From assembly GCA_021730945.1 (NCBI GenBank), contig JAKFYH010000018.1:1-37997 (forward strand): 37,997 nucleotides of DNA, written 5' to 3'. Source of the stretch: Acidobacteriota bacterium (lineage in GTDB: Bacteria; Acidobacteriota; Vicinamibacteria; Vicinamibacterales; UBA2999). The notes under the pieces are model-generated. The model did no database searches. It was not told the DNA's origin and saw only the letters and a list, made by a program, of their open reading frames with translations. This document shows, piece after piece, positions 6,512-12,821 of the stretch; positions within the stretch are counted from its first letter, which is position 1; every line of letters starts with the position of its first letter. The position numbers and the translations under genes are program-made.

Positions 6512-8176
6512 ATGAAGACCGTGGCCGACTCGGCGCTCACCGGAAAACAACGCTGGGAACGTGACGTTCTGGAGCCCGCCCTCCGCAAATCGCCTGAACG
6601 CGAGGGGCCCTTCACCACCATTTCAGGGCGCGCCATCGATCGGCTTTACACCGCCGACGACGTGGCCGGTCTGCGCGATGCCGGCAACCCGGGCGAGTTT
6701 CCGTACGTCCGCGGCATTCATCCCACCGGCTATCGCGGCAAGCTCTGGACGATGCGGCAGTTCGCCGGATTTGGCACCCCGGAAGAGACCAACCAGCGCT
6801 ACCTGGACTTGATCGCCGCCGGTGGCACCGGGCTGAGCGTGGCGTTCGACCTGCCGACGCTCATGGGCCGCGATCCCGACCACGAACTGTGCCTCGGCGA
6901 AGTCGGCAAGTGCGGTGTCAGCGTGATGTCGCTGGCCGACATGGAACGGCTGTTTGCGGGTATCTCGCTCGCGGACATCACGACCTCGATGACCATCAAC
7001 TCGCCGGCACCGATGATCTTTGCCATGTATCTCGTGGTGGCCGAGCAGCAGGGCGCCGACTGGAAGACGATTTCGGGCACGATCCAGAACGACATCCTCA
7101 AGGAATTCATCGCCCAGAAGGAATACATCTTCCCGCCGCGCGCCTCGATGCGGCTGATCACCGACATCTTCGCGTTCTGCGCCGAGGAGGTGCCCAAGTG
7201 GAACACCATCTCAGTGAGCGGCTATCACATTCGCGAGGCGGGTTCGACCGCGCTGCAGGAACTGGCGTTTACCCTGCGCGACGGGCTGGAGTACGTGCAG
7301 TACGGCGTTGACGCCGGCCTCGATGTCGACGATTTCGTGCCGCGCATGTCGTTCTTCTTCAATTCGCACAGCGACTTCTTCGAGGAGATCGCCAAGTATC
7401 GCGCCGCCCGCCAGTTGTGGGCCGAGGCCATGAAGCACCGCTTCGGCGCCAAGAATCCCCGTTCCTGGCAGTTGCGCTTCCACACCCAGACGGCCGGCGT
7501 GTCGTTGACCGCGCAGCAGCCCTACAACAACGTTGTCCGCACGGCGCTGCAGGCGCTGGCCGCGGTGCTGGGCGGCACCAACTCGCTGCACACCAACTCG
7601 CTCGACGAAGCGCTGGCGCTGCCGACCCGGGAGACCGCCACCATCGCGCTGCGGACGCAGCAGATCATCGCCCATGAAAGCGGCGTCACTCACGCGGTCG
7701 ATCCGCTGGGTGGCTCCTACTTCATCGAGCGGCTCACCCAGGACATGATCGACGGCACCCTGAAGTACTGGGCGACCATCGACGGCATGGGCGGCATGGT
7801 CGAGGCGATCGAGCGCGGCTATCCGCAGAAGGAGATTGCCGAGGCGTCCTACCAGTTCCAGCAGGCGGTGGAACGCAAGGAGAAGGTGATCGTCGGCGTC
7901 AATGAATTCGTCCAGGCCGATGAGAAGCCGATTGAAATCCTCTACATCGACGACACCGCCTCGTCGGTGCAACTCCAGCGCCTGGCCGAGCTGAAGCAGT
8001 CGCGCGATAACGACCGCGTGCGCCGCACGCTCGAGGCGTTGAAGGCCGTGGCCTCGGGTGACGGCAACACCATGGTGCCGCTGCTCGAGTGCGTGCGGGC
8101 CTATGCCACCGTGGGCGAAATGTGTGATGCGCTCCGCGAGGTGTGGGGCGAGTACGAAGAAGTGCCGGTGATATGA
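6512..8176 (+). CDS. B12-dependent acyl-CoA mutase large subunit, isobutyryl-CoA mutase-like
   Basis: 554 aa catalytic TIM-barrel subunit of a coenzyme-B12 acyl-CoA mutase; the B12 domain is a separate downstream gene. The sequence aligns with methylmalonyl-CoA mutase (MCM) at a constant offset of 5. Gln197 of MCM is Gln192 and His244 is His239 (SGYHIREAG). Tyr89 is replaced by Phe84 ([10 protein letters not shown]), and Arg207, which holds the free carboxylate of methylmalonyl-CoA, is replaced by Gln202 ([13 protein letters not shown]). Phe plus Gln is the pattern known from isobutyryl-CoA mutases. 2-Hydroxyisobutyryl-CoA mutase has Ile at the first site and Asp where this protein has Ala111. 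Automatic annotation will probably say MCM. Expected reaction: isobutyryl-CoA to n-butyryl-CoA. The small subunit starts inside its stop codon (ATGA). Confidence 0.85.
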
Positions 8177-8574
8177 GTCAAAAAATTCGCGTCGTCATTG
8201 CCAAACCCGGATTGGACGGCCACGATCGGGGCGCCAAGGTGATCGCGCGCGCGCTGCGTGATGCCGGCATGGAAGTCATTTACACCGGCCTGCGGCAGAC
8301 ACCGGAGATGATTGTCTCGGCCGCGCTCCAGGAAGACGCCGACGTGATCGGCCTGTCCATCCTGTCGGGCGCCCACATGCACATCTGTCCGCGAGTCATG
8401 GAACTGCTCAAGGAGAAGGGACTGGACGATGTGCAGGTGGTGATCGGCGGCATTATTCCCGACGTCGATCTGCCGAAACTGAACGGCATGGGCATTCGCG
8501 GCATCTTTATCCCGGGCACCCCCATGCAGCACATCATCGACTACATCACCGCCAACGCCCGGGCGCGGGTCTGA
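8173..8574 (+). CDS. B12-binding small subunit of the acyl-CoA mutase
   Basis: 133 aa cobalamin-binding protein with the base-off/His-on motif DGHDRG (Asp15, His17, Gly20), then SILSGAH and VVIGGIIP that line the nucleotide tail pocket. It is the free-standing equivalent of the C-terminal domain of methylmalonyl-CoA mutase and of the small subunit of Streptomyces-type isobutyryl-CoA mutase. The ATG at 8173 overlaps the TGA of the large subunit, which points to coupled translation and a fixed subunit ratio. A GTG at 8143 would add ten residues read from the large-subunit gene and is not needed. No chaperone GTPase (MeaB type) gene lies next to it. Confidence 0.93.
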
Positions 8575-8623: not shown

Positions 8624-10225
8624 ATGCGCACATTGTTGCTCGCCGACGACAGCGTTACCACGCAACGGGTTGTCGCGCTGACTTTCGCCGAGGAGTCGTT
8701 CCGGGTGGTGACCGTCTCGGACGGTCAGCAGGCCATCGAGGCGATGGCCGCCATGCGGCCCGATATCGTCCTGGCCGGAACGACCCTGCCGCGAACCAAC
8801 GGCTACGAGCTGGCCGAGCACATGCGTGGCGACGCCAAGCTGCGTGAGGTTCCGGTGCTGCTGCTGTCGGGGGCGTTTGAATCGGTTGACATGGCGCGGC
8901 TCAAGGTGAGCGGCGCCCGGGGCGTGGTCGAGAAACCGCTAGAGCCAACTGCCGTGATTAGTCGAGTGAGAGAACTACTGGGCCTCAAGGACACTCGTCC
9001 CGCGCCGCCCGCGGGCCGGCTGGTGACGTCTGCCGACACGCCTTCAGAGCGGCGCCAGGCGGCGGCGCCGGCCGCGGTTCGCCAGGCGCCGGTGGCGTCG
9101 TGGGATGACCTGCGCGAGGAGTCGGGCTTGCCGGCCGATGCGCCGTCGGTCGAAGGCGGCGCCGGCCGCGCAGACTACCTCGATACCCTCGACGCCGCGT
9201 TCGATTCTCTCGATCAGCATCTGGCCGGCCGCAACGAGGCTCATCCACTCCAGCGCAATCCGTCCCCGCCCATCGGGCAGGCCGCCGGCGCGCCGGATCC
9301 GCGTTCGCCCGGACGCCGCCCGGCGCCTCACAGCCTCGGCGGCAAGCCGAACTCGGTGTTCGAGGTCGACGACGACTGGTTCGCCGACGACAAGAAGACG
9401 CGCGACACCGCCGCGCGCCAGGAAATGGCCGCCGACGCCCATGAGGCCCTGCCAAGCCGCCCGGCGGCGACACCCGGAAAGCCGATCTTTGAAGTCGACG
9501 ACGACTGGTTTGCCGACAACGACAAGGCCACTCCGGATCGAGCGGGCCTGCATCGCGACCTGGCGGCAGAGATGGGCATCCGCGACCTGGACCTGCCCCC
9601 GGTGGAGTCGCTAGACGCGCCGGCCTCAGCGGCGGGCTCGGACTTCGACTTCGGGCTCGACGACATTCTCGCCGACCCGGCGACCAAGGCTGCGACGCCC
9701 GAGCCGCCCGTCGTCCCGCCGCCGCCCGCTCCCAGAGCGGTGCCGACGCCAGTTGTACCTCCACCCGTTGTACGCCCGCCCGTGGCGGTCGCGCCGCCGC
9801 CCGTCGCTCTGGCCCCCATGCCGCGGTCGCCCCTGGCGTCCGCTCCGGTACCGGTACCGGCGCCGGTGTCCTTCGCGGCTCCGGAGGTCCACCCGCCGGC
9901 AGAGCCCAGTTCGGTGGCCGACGATTTCGCGGCCTTGTTGGCGTTTGAGACTGGAGATGCCCCTCCGGCCCCGGTGGCGCCGGCTGTCGCGGCCGCGCCG
10001 GTGACGGTGGCGGCAGCGCCTGAGATAACCGACGGGATGCTCGACCAGATCGCCCAGCGCGTGGCCGATCGCCTGAATGCCGGCACCTTCGGCACGCACT
10101 TGCGCGATGCGATGGCATCGACGGTGCGCGAGACCGTGCGGTCGGTGGTATCGGAAACCTCCGAGCGGCTGGTTCGCGATGAGATCGCGCGAATCAAGGG
10201 CCGCGCCGAGCGCGAGACGCCCTAA
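8624..10225 (+). CDS. pseudo-receiver protein with long Pro/Ala linker and C-terminal helical domain
   Basis: 533 aa. Residues 1-118 fold like a response-regulator receiver: acidic pair D8-D9, conserved S82 and the lysine-proline K104-P105. The phospho-acceptor Asp is replaced by Gly52 (PDIVLAGTTLP where PDxVLLDxxMP is expected), so normal phosphorylation is unlikely. Residues ~125-470 are low-complexity, rich in Pro, Ala and Val, and carry two copies of FEVDDDWFAD (near 246 and 289) plus a related DFDFGLDDILAD near 345. The last ~65 residues are predicted helices ending LVRDEIARIKGRAERE, which resembles the short C-terminal oligomerisation helices of PopZ-like polar proteins; that likeness is tentative. 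No DNA-binding or enzymatic output domain is visible. A scaffold or signalling-adaptor role is inferred. Confidence 0.8.
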   Translation: MRTLLLADDSVTTQRVVALTFAEESFRVVTVSDGQQAIEAMAAMRPDIVLAGTTLPRTNGYELAEHMRGDAKLREVPVLLLSGAFESVDMARLKVSGARGVVEKPLEPTAVISRVRELLGLKDTRPAPPAGRLVTSADTPSERRQAAAPAAVRQAPVASWDDLREESGLPADAPSVEGGAGRADYLDTLDAAFDSLDQHLAGRNEAHPLQRNPSPPIGQAAGAPDPRSPGRRPAPHSLGGKPNSVFEVDDDWFADDKKTRDTAARQEMAADAHEALPSRPAATPGKPIFEVDDDWFADNDKATPDRAGLHRDLAAEMGIRDLDLPPVESLDAPASAAGSDFDFGLDDILADPATKAATPEPPVVPPPPAPRAVPTPVVPPPVVRPPVAVAPPPVALAPMPRSPLASAPVPVPAPVSFAAPEVHPPAEPSSVADDFAALLAFETGDAPPAPVAPAVAAAPVTVAAAPEITDGMLDQIAQRVADRLNAGTFGTHLRDAMASTVRETVRSVVSETSERLVRDEIARIKGRAERETP

Positions 10226-10268: not shown

Positions 10269-12821
10269 ATGCCCGTCCCGGAAAAGCCCGCACTGGAAGG
10301 CCTGGAAGACACGCTCTCGGCGAAATGGGAGCGTGACGGCACGTACCGGTTCGACCGGACCAAGCCCCGCGACCAGATTTACTCGATCGACACGCCGCCG
10401 CCGACCGTCAGTGGTTCGCTGCACGTGGGGCACGTCTTCTCCTACACCCATACCGACATCGTCGCCCGCTTCCAGCGCATGCGGGGCAAGGAAGTGTTCT
10501 ACCCCATGGGGTGGGATGACAACGGCTTGCCGACCGAGCGGCGCGTGCAGAACTACTACGGCGTTCGCTGCGATCCGTCGCTGCCGTACGACCCGGCGTT
10601 CGTGGCGCCTGAGAAGCCGGAGAAGCAGCCGATTTCGGTATCGCGCCCCAACTTCATCGAGCTGTGCGTGAAGCTGACCGTCGAGGACGAGAAGGTGTTC
10701 GAGCACCTGTGGCGCTACCTCGGCTTGTCGGTGGATTGGTCGATGACCTACGCGACGATCGCGCCGGCCGCTCAGCGGGTGTCGCAGATGATGTTCCTGC
10801 GGCTGCTGGCGAAGCACCTGGCCTACCAGGTGGAGGCGCCGACGTTGTGGGACGTGGATTTTCGCACTGCCGTGGCGCAGGCCGAGCTCGAGGATCGCGA
10901 ACAGCCCGGGGCGTATCACAGGATTCACTTCTCTCGCGATCAAGGATCCGGCGGCGATCCGATCGCGATCGAAACCACCCGTCCGGAGTTGATTCCGGCG
11001 TGCGTCGCGCTGGTGGCTCATCCCGATGACGAGCGCTACAAGCCGCTGTTTGGGACGCACGTGGTGACGCCGATCTTCGGCGTGAGAGTGCCGGTGCTGG
11101 CGCACGCCCTGGCCGATCCCGAAAAGGGCAGCGGCATCGCGATGATTTGCACGTTCGGCGACACCACCGACGTGACCTGGTGGCGGGAGTTGAAGCTGCC
11201 GGTCCGCGCGATCGTGCAGCCCAACGGCGCCCTGGGCCGGGTGACGTGGGGCCAGCCGGGCTGGGAGACCGCCGATGTGGCGCGCGCCCAACAGGCCTAC
11301 GATCAACTGGCCGGACTGTCGGCCAAGAAGGCGCAGGCGAAGATCGTCGAGCTGCTGCGCGAGAGCGGCGACCTGCAGGGTGAGCCGAAGCCGATCACGC
11401 ACAACGTCAAATTCTACGAGAAGGGCGATCGGCCGCTGGAGATCGTGACCAGCCGCCAGTGGTTCATCAAGACCATCGACCACCGCGACGAGTTCATCAA
11501 GCGCGGCCGCGAAATGGCATGGCACCCGGAGTACATGCAGGCTCGCTACGAGAACTGGGTCAACGGCCTCAACGGTGATTGGTGCGTGAGTCGCCAGCGC
11601 TTCTTCGGCGTCCCGTTCCCGGTCTGGTACCCGGTGCGCGACGACGGCGCCACCGACTACACACGGCCGCTGGTGCCCGACGAGTCGCGCCTGCCGATCG
11701 ATCCGTCGACCGACGTCCCAGCCGGATACACGGCCAGCCAGCGCGGCGTGCCCGGCGGGTTTGTCGGCGATCCCGATGTCATGGACACGTGGGCAACCTC
11801 GTCGGTGTCGCCGCAACTGGTCACCCAGTGGGAGACCGACGCCGACATCTTCGCGCGCACGTTCCCCATGGACCTGCGGCCCCAGGCGCACGACATCATC
11901 CGCACCTGGCTGTTTTCGTCAGTGGTGCGCGCACACTTCGAGAACCAGTCGGTGCCGTGGACCCATGCCGCCATTTCCGGGTGGGTGCTCGATCCCGATC
12001 GCAAGAAGATGTCAAAGTCCAAGGGCAACGTGGTGACGCCGCTGGGCCTGTTGCAGGAATACGGATCCGATGGCGTCCGCTACTGGGCGGCGCGCGGCGG
12101 GCCCGGCGTGGACACGGCGTTTGACGTCGGCCAGATGAAGATTGGCCGCAAGCTCGCCATGAAGTTGCTCAACGTCTCGAAGTTCGTGCTGGCCGGAGAC
12201 CTGCCGGCCGGCGCGGTCACCGAGGCGCTCGACCGCGGCATGCTGCAGAACCTGGCTGGACTGGTGGATGAGGCGACCGCCGAACTCGAACACTACGAGT
12301 ACGCCCGCGCCCTCGCCAAGATCGAGTCGTTCTTCTGGGACTTCTGTGACAACTACGTGGAGGCGGCCAAGTCGCGCCGCTACGGCGACTTCGGCGCCGA
12401 AGCCGCGGCCTCGGCCAACACCGCCATGCGGCTCGCCCTCTCGGTGCTGTTGCGGCTGCTGGCGCCCTACCTGTCGTTCGTGTGTGACGAGGTGTGGTCC
12501 TGGTCGAACGCCGGCTCCGTGCACCGCGCGCAGTGGCCGACGCGCGACGAGTTGATCGCCGTATCAGGCCAGGACGAACCGGCGCGACAGGCGGTGTTTC
12601 ACCTCACCGAAGCCCTGAACGCGATCCGCAAGGCCAAGACTGATCAGAAGGTGTCGGTGGGGACGCCGGTTCAGGCGGTCGTCTACACCGCGTCGGACGA
12701 AGCGGCAACGGGCCTGGCGCTGGTCGAGCGCGACCTGAAGGCGGCGTGCCGGACCGACGGCCTGGTCATCAAGGCAGGCGAGCCCGGCGTCGAGATCACC
12801 CTGAAGCCTGCCGAGGCCTGA
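10269..12821 (+). CDS. valS: valyl-tRNA synthetase
   Basis: 850 aa class I aminoacyl-tRNA synthetase that charges tRNA-Val. The N-terminal catalytic half has PPPTVSGSLHVGHVFSYTHTD with the HIGH-type motif at residues 52-55, and GWDDNGLPTERRVQ. The second signature KKMSKSKGN is at about 579-587. An editing domain occupies roughly residues 190-400. The last part is the anticodon-binding helical domain (WDFCDNYVEAAKSRRYG, near 700). The protein is of the shorter valyl type with no long C-terminal coiled coil. It opens a cluster in which nadC and birA follow by overlapping codons, so the three are probably co-translated. Confidence 0.96.
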   Translation: MPVPEKPALEGLEDTLSAKWERDGTYRFDRTKPRDQIYSIDTPPPTVSGSLHVGHVFSYTHTDIVARFQRMRGKEVFYPMGWDDNGLPTERRVQNYYGVRCDPSLPYDPAFVAPEKPEKQPISVSRPNFIELCVKLTVEDEKVFEHLWRYLGLSVDWSMTYATIAPAAQRVSQMMFLRLLAKHLAYQVEAPTLWDVDFRTAVAQAELEDREQPGAYHRIHFSRDQGSGGDPIAIETTRPELIPACVALVAHPDDERYKPLFGTHVVTPIFGVRVPVLAHALADPEKGSGIAMICTFGDTTDVTWWRELKLPVRAIVQPNGALGRVTWGQPGWETADVARAQQAYDQLAGLSAKKAQAKIVELLRESGDLQGEPKPITHNVKFYEKGDRPLEIVTSRQWFIKTIDHRDEFIKRGREMAWHPEYMQARYENWVNGLNGDWCVSRQRFFGVPFPVWYPVRDDGATDYTRPLVPDESRLPIDPSTDVPAGYTASQRGVPGGFVGDPDVMDTWATSSVSPQLVTQWETDADIFARTFPMDLRPQAHDIIRTWLFSSVVRAHFENQSVPWTHAAISGWVLDPDRKKMSKSKGNVVTPLGLLQEYGSDGVRYWAARGGPGVDTAFDVGQMKIGRKLAMKLLNVSKFVLAGDLPAGAVTEALDRGMLQNLAGLVDEATAELEHYEYARALAKIESFFWDFCDNYVEAAKSRRYGDFGAEAAASANTAMRLALSVLLRLLAPYLSFVCDEVWSWSNAGSVHRAQWPTRDELIAVSGQDEPARQAVFHLTEALNAIRKAKTDQKVSVGTPVQAVVYTASDEAATGLALVERDLKAACRTDGLVIKAGEPGVEITLKPAEA

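Follow-up and report, generated by a model that had tools for sequence, protein, structure and literature searches.

The window, as we call the whole 37,997-nt stretch of DNA analyzed here, carries an open reading frame at positions 8624-10225 (+) that encodes a protein of 533 amino acids (aa), built of an N-terminal receiver domain, a disordered linker and a C-terminal helix resembling the C-terminal domain of the polarity protein RomR (RomR-C), and we read this gene as derived from romR. It is preceded by a gene that we take to encode the small, B12-binding subunit of methylmalonyl-CoA mutase (mcmS; 8143..8574, +), and followed by what is presumably valS (10269..12821, +); both neighbors were named by recognition of their sequences, without a family search. 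The receiver occupies aa 1-120 (8624..8983, +): the Pfam family Response_reg (PF00072) matches aa 5-115 with an E-value of 1.6e-16, and AlphaFold2 models the block with pLDDT values of 88-98, the model of the whole protein having a mean pLDDT of 70.1 and a pTM of 0.41. The original prediction for this gene, made from the sequence alone, had described a long disordered middle. Most of this region is indeed modeled with low confidence, but it contains five short predicted helices (aa 160-166, 182-204, 255-274, 302-316 and 431-442). The C-terminus (aa 470-531) is predicted to be helical, with pLDDT values of 76-93. No output domain beyond the receiver was found in Pfam or among the best 25 of 86 NCBIfam rows, and a sequence search of the PDB gave generic receivers alone among the best 60 of 173 matches. 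PopZ is a DUF2497-type protein, and no such Pfam family matched the C-terminus at E ≤ 1.

Relatives were collected from 99 genomes, the source genome of the window included. Matches at E ≤ 1e-20 occurred in 70 of these, and 73 loci with a receiver-bearing frame were extracted, 13 of which are cut by contig ends and three of which are second copies (in genomes G046, G094 and G005). A search of public contigs with the window protein gave five loci. Three of these match the receiver alone, whereas L038 and L039 are real relatives and agree with G008 and G002. The record that holds L038 (JAIEMQ010000015.1) is titled "Cyanobacteria bacterium" though it appears to come from a relative in the genus of the window, and its public label looks wrong. 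The place of the gene is widely shared: mcmS lies 5' of it at 66 of the 73 loci (at a distance of up to 300 nt in 61 and of 1.0-2.6 kb in 5), and valS lies 3' of it at 54, many of the misses being cut flanks. The adjacent valS is itself very different in 17 of 76 rows, which sit on branches some 4 changes per column long and look like cases of replacement in place; because of these rows the valS tree used below is not a clean species tree.

At the position of the phosphorylated Asp, the receiver has Gly52 (codon 8777..8779, +). Column alignment bore out this part of the original prediction, as well as its statement that the acidic pair (D8, D9), the Ser (S82) and the Lys (K104) are retained. 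The phospho-Asp is missing from all eight orthologues of the window genus that have a receiver (Gly in seven, Ser in one), and it is kept in 64/64 rows outside the genus. On the valS tree this is one change, so that, as far as alignment and tree reach, the loss of the phospho-Asp is a single event at the level of the genus; the trees do not separate gain from loss, and "loss" is our reading of them. Genome G005 carries a second, divergent receiver protein (L084:4343-5605), which has Ser at the Asp column.

The linker holds several short motifs, of which the most conspicuous is FEVDDDWFAD (hereafter DWF). Two copies had been predicted, and both are exact: the first (aa 246-255; 9359..9388, +) runs into the predicted helix at aa 255-274, and the second (aa 289-298; 9488..9517, +) is followed by the predicted helix at aa 302-316, which contains AAEMGIRDL. 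The copies thus sit in a unit of about 35 aa, in which a disordered DWF stretch precedes a predicted helix. Compared by eye at the DNA level, the copies are distinguished by three third-codon positions, and the encoded peptide is the same. The related third copy of the original prediction is probably FDFGLDDILAD (aa 341-351; 9644..9676, +), which keeps the pattern of Phe and Asp but has no Trp, and for that reason we do not count it; similar FDF[GR]L[DE]D stretches occur in several orthologues from the genus. The longest exact internal repeat within aa 121-533 is 10 residues long, and repeats of more than 7 residues arose in none of 2000 composition shuffles. A degenerate DNA pattern of the FEVDDDWFAD core matched twice in the 4.7-Mb source genome, both times in the window gene, and its control matched 0 times. 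The idea that DWF is a docking signal shared with other proteins of the same genome was therefore rejected, since the DNA pattern is found in the window gene only.

Across the relatives, the strict DWF pattern is present in 7/73 rows, all from the window genus (two copies in G000, G005, G006, G007 and G008; one in G001 and G002), and in 0/64 rows outside it. G003, the eighth orthologue of the genus, has lost the whole middle and the strict DWF pattern with it. A DWF in L105 was judged from its context to be due to chance. The genus nearest in the valS tree, g10, keeps the Asp, and one of its three receiver-bearing rows (L017) has a degenerate DWF...AGMGMEDL unit; the DWF motif of the window genus may have arisen either together with the Asp loss or apart from it. 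As to the earlier proposal of a short binding motif, the repeat does look like a docking element and its unit of about 35 aa is kept within the genus, but the motif is not conserved beyond it. Homologues with an intact phospho-Asp and no conserved motif had been named as evidence against the original prediction; this is what we find outside the genus, yet inside it both traits are consistent, and the objection holds by half. Two further observations concern proteins of the genus: in L084, the stretches LQRDMGLDD and LTAEMGVDD are reminiscent of AAEMGI in the DWF unit, and L090 (G001) has tandem APVEV repeats in its Pro-rich linker.

Two other linker elements are more widespread. DYLDTLDAAF (9173..9202, +), which lies within the predicted helix at aa 182-204 (the YLD helix; pLDDT 75-79), is the local form of a [DE]YFDxLDAAF element whose strict pattern occurs in 33/73 rows, 13 of the 73 being cut by contig ends. 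The helix VADDFAALLAFE (aa 431-442; 9914..9949, +; the AFALLA helix) is the local form of an ADAFxALLAAEQGE element, in which F435, L438, A440 and E442 are nearly invariant among 40 aligned rows.

The C-terminal helix points to the origin of the gene. The original prediction had said that the C-terminal helices recall polar-organizing proteins, a good guess, given that the helix (aa 467-528; 10022..10207, +; pLDDT mostly 76-93), which we delimited with a C-terminal profile, is homologous to RomR-C, and in Myxococcus RomR-C localizes to the pole on its own (PMC3441718). RomR has been described as consisting of a receiver, an unstructured linker and RomR-C, the latter being alpha-helical, rich in conserved Glu and marked by an invariant Trp and Pro; in Myxococcus, the linker, too, targets the pole alone (PMC3441718). 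Residues 371-420 of M. xanthus RomR are reported to be trimeric, and Trp394 (W394) to be needed for the binding of MglC (PMC12719032). Our profile covered the last ~50 residues of 29 rows from the order of the window. At E ≤ 1e-4, it matched 119 of 297 genomes in a sample of the phylum, 26 in the order and 93 outside it; as the profile was built from rows of the order, RomRs elsewhere may have been missed. From the 93 non-order matches, 42 proteins were taken, mostly the best-scoring ones. The Trp column, occupied by Arg506 in the window protein (10139..10141, +), has Trp in 34/42 of these proteins, which given this choice is not an even sample, and in 0/58 rows of the order; the Pro column, occupied by Ser510 (10151..10153, +), has Pro in 41/42 and 1/58, respectively. 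The 58 rows are those of the 73 that remain without the 13 cut by contig ends and without L084 and L066; the Trp column of L212, L220 and L235 and the Pro column of L212, L218, L220 and L235 were read by eye. The 34 proteins end in W[EDQ][VI][VI]P, mostly followed by xxAE, and RETVRSVVSETSERLVRDEI of the window protein aligns gap-free with REIAWEVVPDLAETIIRNEL of L190.

Gene order and the receiver agree with this origin. In three genomes from outside the order (G292 and G160, which belong to the same class, and G116), a Trp-bearing RomR-type gene lies between mcmS and a valS-like start. With the fetched stretches ending at this point, the valS-like matches are short and weak (E 1e-6 to 1e-10); mcmS is visible at 11 of the 42 non-order loci, for which short flanks were fetched. 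The counterpart of the order's gene in this slot is thus a protein with a receiver, a Pro-rich linker and a C-terminal helix with WE[VI][VI]P. In a receiver tree, 29 receivers from the order form a group with 40 RomR-type receivers of the phylum, which were obtained from the 42 proteins, and this group is separated from 11 receiver rows of the source genome (support 99); the order forms one side of a branch (support 91). This was a quick tree of 122 columns with long-branch warnings, some of the 11 rows are duplicates, and Myxococcus RomR was not among the rows. With RomR-type proteins encoded at this place in the three non-order genomes, we conclude from gene place and alignment that the window protein is a RomR by descent, though not a canonical RomR; its homology to M. 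xanthus RomR is based on published features rather than on a direct sequence comparison.

The C-terminal helix has been expanded in two lineages. In L038:4001-6556 (G008, window genus), it has grown to 22 copies of a 16-aa unit (for example, VVAETSERLIRDAVPG), with 20 of 21 spacings exactly 16 aa, and in genus g10 (L017, L093 and L094) several additional segments extend the C-terminal helical region.

Robl_LC7 is the fold of both MglB and MglC, and MglA is the Ras-like GTPase of the same system. For MglA, the Pfam family PF00025 (Arf) proved a poor detector, giving mostly long frames and a few GTPase-like frames in G062, G047, G088 and G093, and was replaced by an MglA protein query from G150. 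This query found nothing in any of the 99 genomes, comprising the source genome and its relatives; as a positive control, it matched 207 of the 297 phylum genomes (E 1e-127 for G150 itself and 1e-110 to 1e-35 for the others listed), with none from the order among the matches listed. Likewise, Robl_LC7 of the MglB/MglC type was found in 0/99 genomes, the source genome included, and in 179/297 phylum genomes, again with none from the order among the matches listed. The source assembly consists of 67 contigs and has a completeness of 100; the order comprises 30 of the 297 phylum genomes, as inferred from a sorted listing. Outside the order, MglA accompanies RomR-C in 93/93 RomR-C-positive genomes and Robl_LC7 does so in 89/93 (the exceptions being G154, G193, G210 and G290), and RomR-C and MglA are associated among the 267 non-order genomes (Fisher 1e-13, uncorrected for shared ancestry and with a profile from rows of the order).

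By the same comparison, the loss of the Trp matches the loss of Mgl proteins in a way that is suggestive but not strict. G154, G193 and G210 have neither the Trp nor Robl_LC7, yet MglA is present; G290 keeps the Trp and has no match for Robl_LC7; and in one genus (f35/g96), five genomes have lost the Trp and keep MglA and one Robl_LC7 match. In many Trp-keeping genomes no separate MglC is evident, as they have only one Robl_LC7 match. PilT passed its cut-off in 90/99 genomes, the source genome included, and type IV pili thus probably remain in the order. In the literature, a 2012 survey reports RomR without a complete MglA/MglB pair in five genomes, each of which has lost REC (the receiver) or RomR-C, and lists Acidobacteria among the RomR sequences without the C-terminal domain (PMC3441718); one Acidobacterium is named as having RomR and MglA but no MglB (PMC3983030). 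Among the titles and abstract openings covered by our literature search, no description of an order with RomR but without MglA was found.

Within the order, the receiver has repeatedly been altered or lost. Of the 29 genomes without a match, the slot could be read in 22 (all but G015, G019, G031, G041, G058, G063 and G096). In G010, G016, G018 and G033, the receiver is absent and a Y[LF][DE]R[LF]D stretch, a AFAALLALEEGE-type stretch and an RLV[RK][EQ]EI tail are retained; G020 and G023 have shortened versions, G098 a version without a receiver and with its tail cut, and G017 the C-terminus only. In G025, G030, G075, G073, G087, G090 and G097, nothing or no more than a scrap is left in the slot, and in G004, a member of the window genus, it holds a relic of ~60 aa in which the start of REC is fused to the last helix. 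In genus g21 (G028, G035, G038, G040 and G042), the Asp is retained and ES replaces the acidic pair. Scored as "intact" versus "damaged or lost", the receiver requires at least six changes on the valS tree (66 scored rows; of the 76 genomes, 3 lack the gene and 7 were left unscored); taken apart, there is one change for the Asp, three for the acidic pair and three for loss of the receiver. What commonly survives the repeated damage to or loss of the receiver is the C-terminal helix, along with the two short motifs. The receiver-less proteins of L158 (G018) and L151 (G033), encoded between mcmS and valS, start with FDSAQGKPG-type stretches, which are repeated in L158 and have the appearance of a short repeat element that is translated close to the point of the deletion.

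As some members of the order have no gene or only a relic, the gene is not needed everywhere and may be in decay. On this explanation, a romR left without partners after the loss of MglA and MglB is eroding, the Asp loss, the REC losses and the relics are all signs of decay, and the DWF repeat is neutral variation of the linker. The relics and gaps in several genomes, which within the window genus include G004 and the middle-deleted G003, would fit such a course, as would the six or more changes between an intact and a damaged or lost receiver. The pattern of constraint within the genus argues against it. In a pooled and uncorrected comparison of seven of the eight genus orthologues (G008, with its long repeat, was left out, and pS is high at 0.47-0.68), pN/pS is lowest in the AFALLA helix (0.18) and the YLD helix (0.21), followed by the C-terminus (0.29), the first and second DWF units (0.32 and 0.34) and the receiver (0.34); the first part of the linker, at 0.48, and the Pro linker, at 0.65, have higher values. 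The value for the receiver indicates that, even without its Asp, this domain still looks constrained. Furthermore, the open frame and the gene place are kept across much of the order, related short motifs survive in REC-less orthologues, and the two DWF copies encode the same peptide despite their third-codon differences. We therefore regard decay as an unlikely account of the window gene.

We think it quite improbable that the protein is an ordinary response regulator unrelated to polarity, in which Gly52 is bypassed through phosphorylation of a neighboring residue or through phospho-independent activation. As the acidic pair, Ser and Lys are intact, the metal site may persist, and receivers without the Asp make up 2.0% of a published sample (PMC12632262), but the rest of the protein is RomR-like in architecture, profile and gene place, and the searches of Pfam and of the best 25 NCBIfam rows described above gave no output domain. 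A FrzS-like pseudo-receiver, which would recognize a partner through its output face at the leading pole, shares the logic of an Asp-less receiver in a polar motility protein (PMC1974792), but order receivers outside the genus keep the Asp, the C-terminus is of the RomR-C type and the gene sits where RomR-type genes sit, so that FrzS is at best a separately arisen analogy and this explanation very improbable.

The reading that we favor, and consider rather probable, is that the window protein is the order's version of RomR: a phosphorylation-independent and Mgl-independent scaffold left over from the RomR polarity module. Its C-terminal helix would oligomerize and anchor the protein at a subcellular site, probably a pole, without MglB or MglC. 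The receiver would serve as a fixed protein-binding face and not as a phospho-switch, and the linker motifs YFDxLDAAF and ADAFxALLA and, in the window genus, the FEVDDDWFAD-plus-helix unit would recruit client proteins. Clients in the type IV pilus or the cell envelope are plausible in view of the wide occurrence of PilT, and a landmark role without MglA is reasonable considering that the linker and RomR-C of M. xanthus are each described as reaching the poles alone.

More tentatively, cell polarity in the order, or some other process tied to the pole, could depend on a scaffold that derives from RomR and does without the Ras-like MglA/MglB switch. In the window genus, this scaffold would also have been freed from phosphorylation and have acquired a duplicated acidic-aromatic unit with which to dock a new partner. 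If this is true, a dynamic polarity switch was turned into a static landmark. RomR has hitherto been understood as a part of the MglA/MglB polarity switch, and an order with RomR but without detectable MglA/MglB is a natural experiment on what RomR does alone, as a scaffold and pole landmark, as opposed to its role for the GTPase. The graded series that runs from loss of the Asp through loss of the acidic pair and deletion of the receiver to the helical core only names the parts that evolution protects.

Among known systems, the closest is RomR of M. xanthus (MXAN_4461) with its homologues, described as having an N-terminal receiver, an unstructured Pro-rich linker and an alpha-helical C-terminus with conserved Glu (PMC3441718). 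The window protein has this architecture, and its gene occupies the slot of Trp-bearing RomR-type proteins in three genomes from outside the order. Its linker, too, resembles that of RomR, which is unstructured and of lineage-specific composition: pLDDT is low, the helices are few and short, and the Pro-rich part shows the high pN/pS given above. Unlike RomR, the window genus lacks the phospho-Asp (Gly52 in the window protein, D53 in M. xanthus), the RomR-C Trp and Pro are absent, MglA and Robl_LC7 were not found in the order, and the window protein has additional conserved linker motifs and the DWF repeat. Going by its sequence, it may thus work like a RomR scaffold while departing from three canonical features: the Asp, the Trp/Pro pair and the Mgl partners. 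A partial parallel is offered by RomR of Bdellovibrio bacteriovorus (Bd2761), for which an evolutionary loss of receiver activation has been described (PMC6428892), in a genome reported to be without MglB (PMC3983030); Bdellovibrio nevertheless keeps MglA, which was not found in the window order, and in the window genus the Asp itself is substituted. The pseudo-receiver of M. xanthus FrzS, a protein tied to polar motility, likewise has no Asp and illustrates that such a receiver can work at the pole (PMC1974792), but FrzS, compared here by its description only, is likely of different descent, given the Asp in sister lineages of the window genus and the RomR-C-type tail. Finally, as a PF00072 receiver without the phospho-Asp, the window protein falls under the definition of an aspartate-less receiver (ALR; PMC12632262), a term that denotes a descriptive class and not a lineage.
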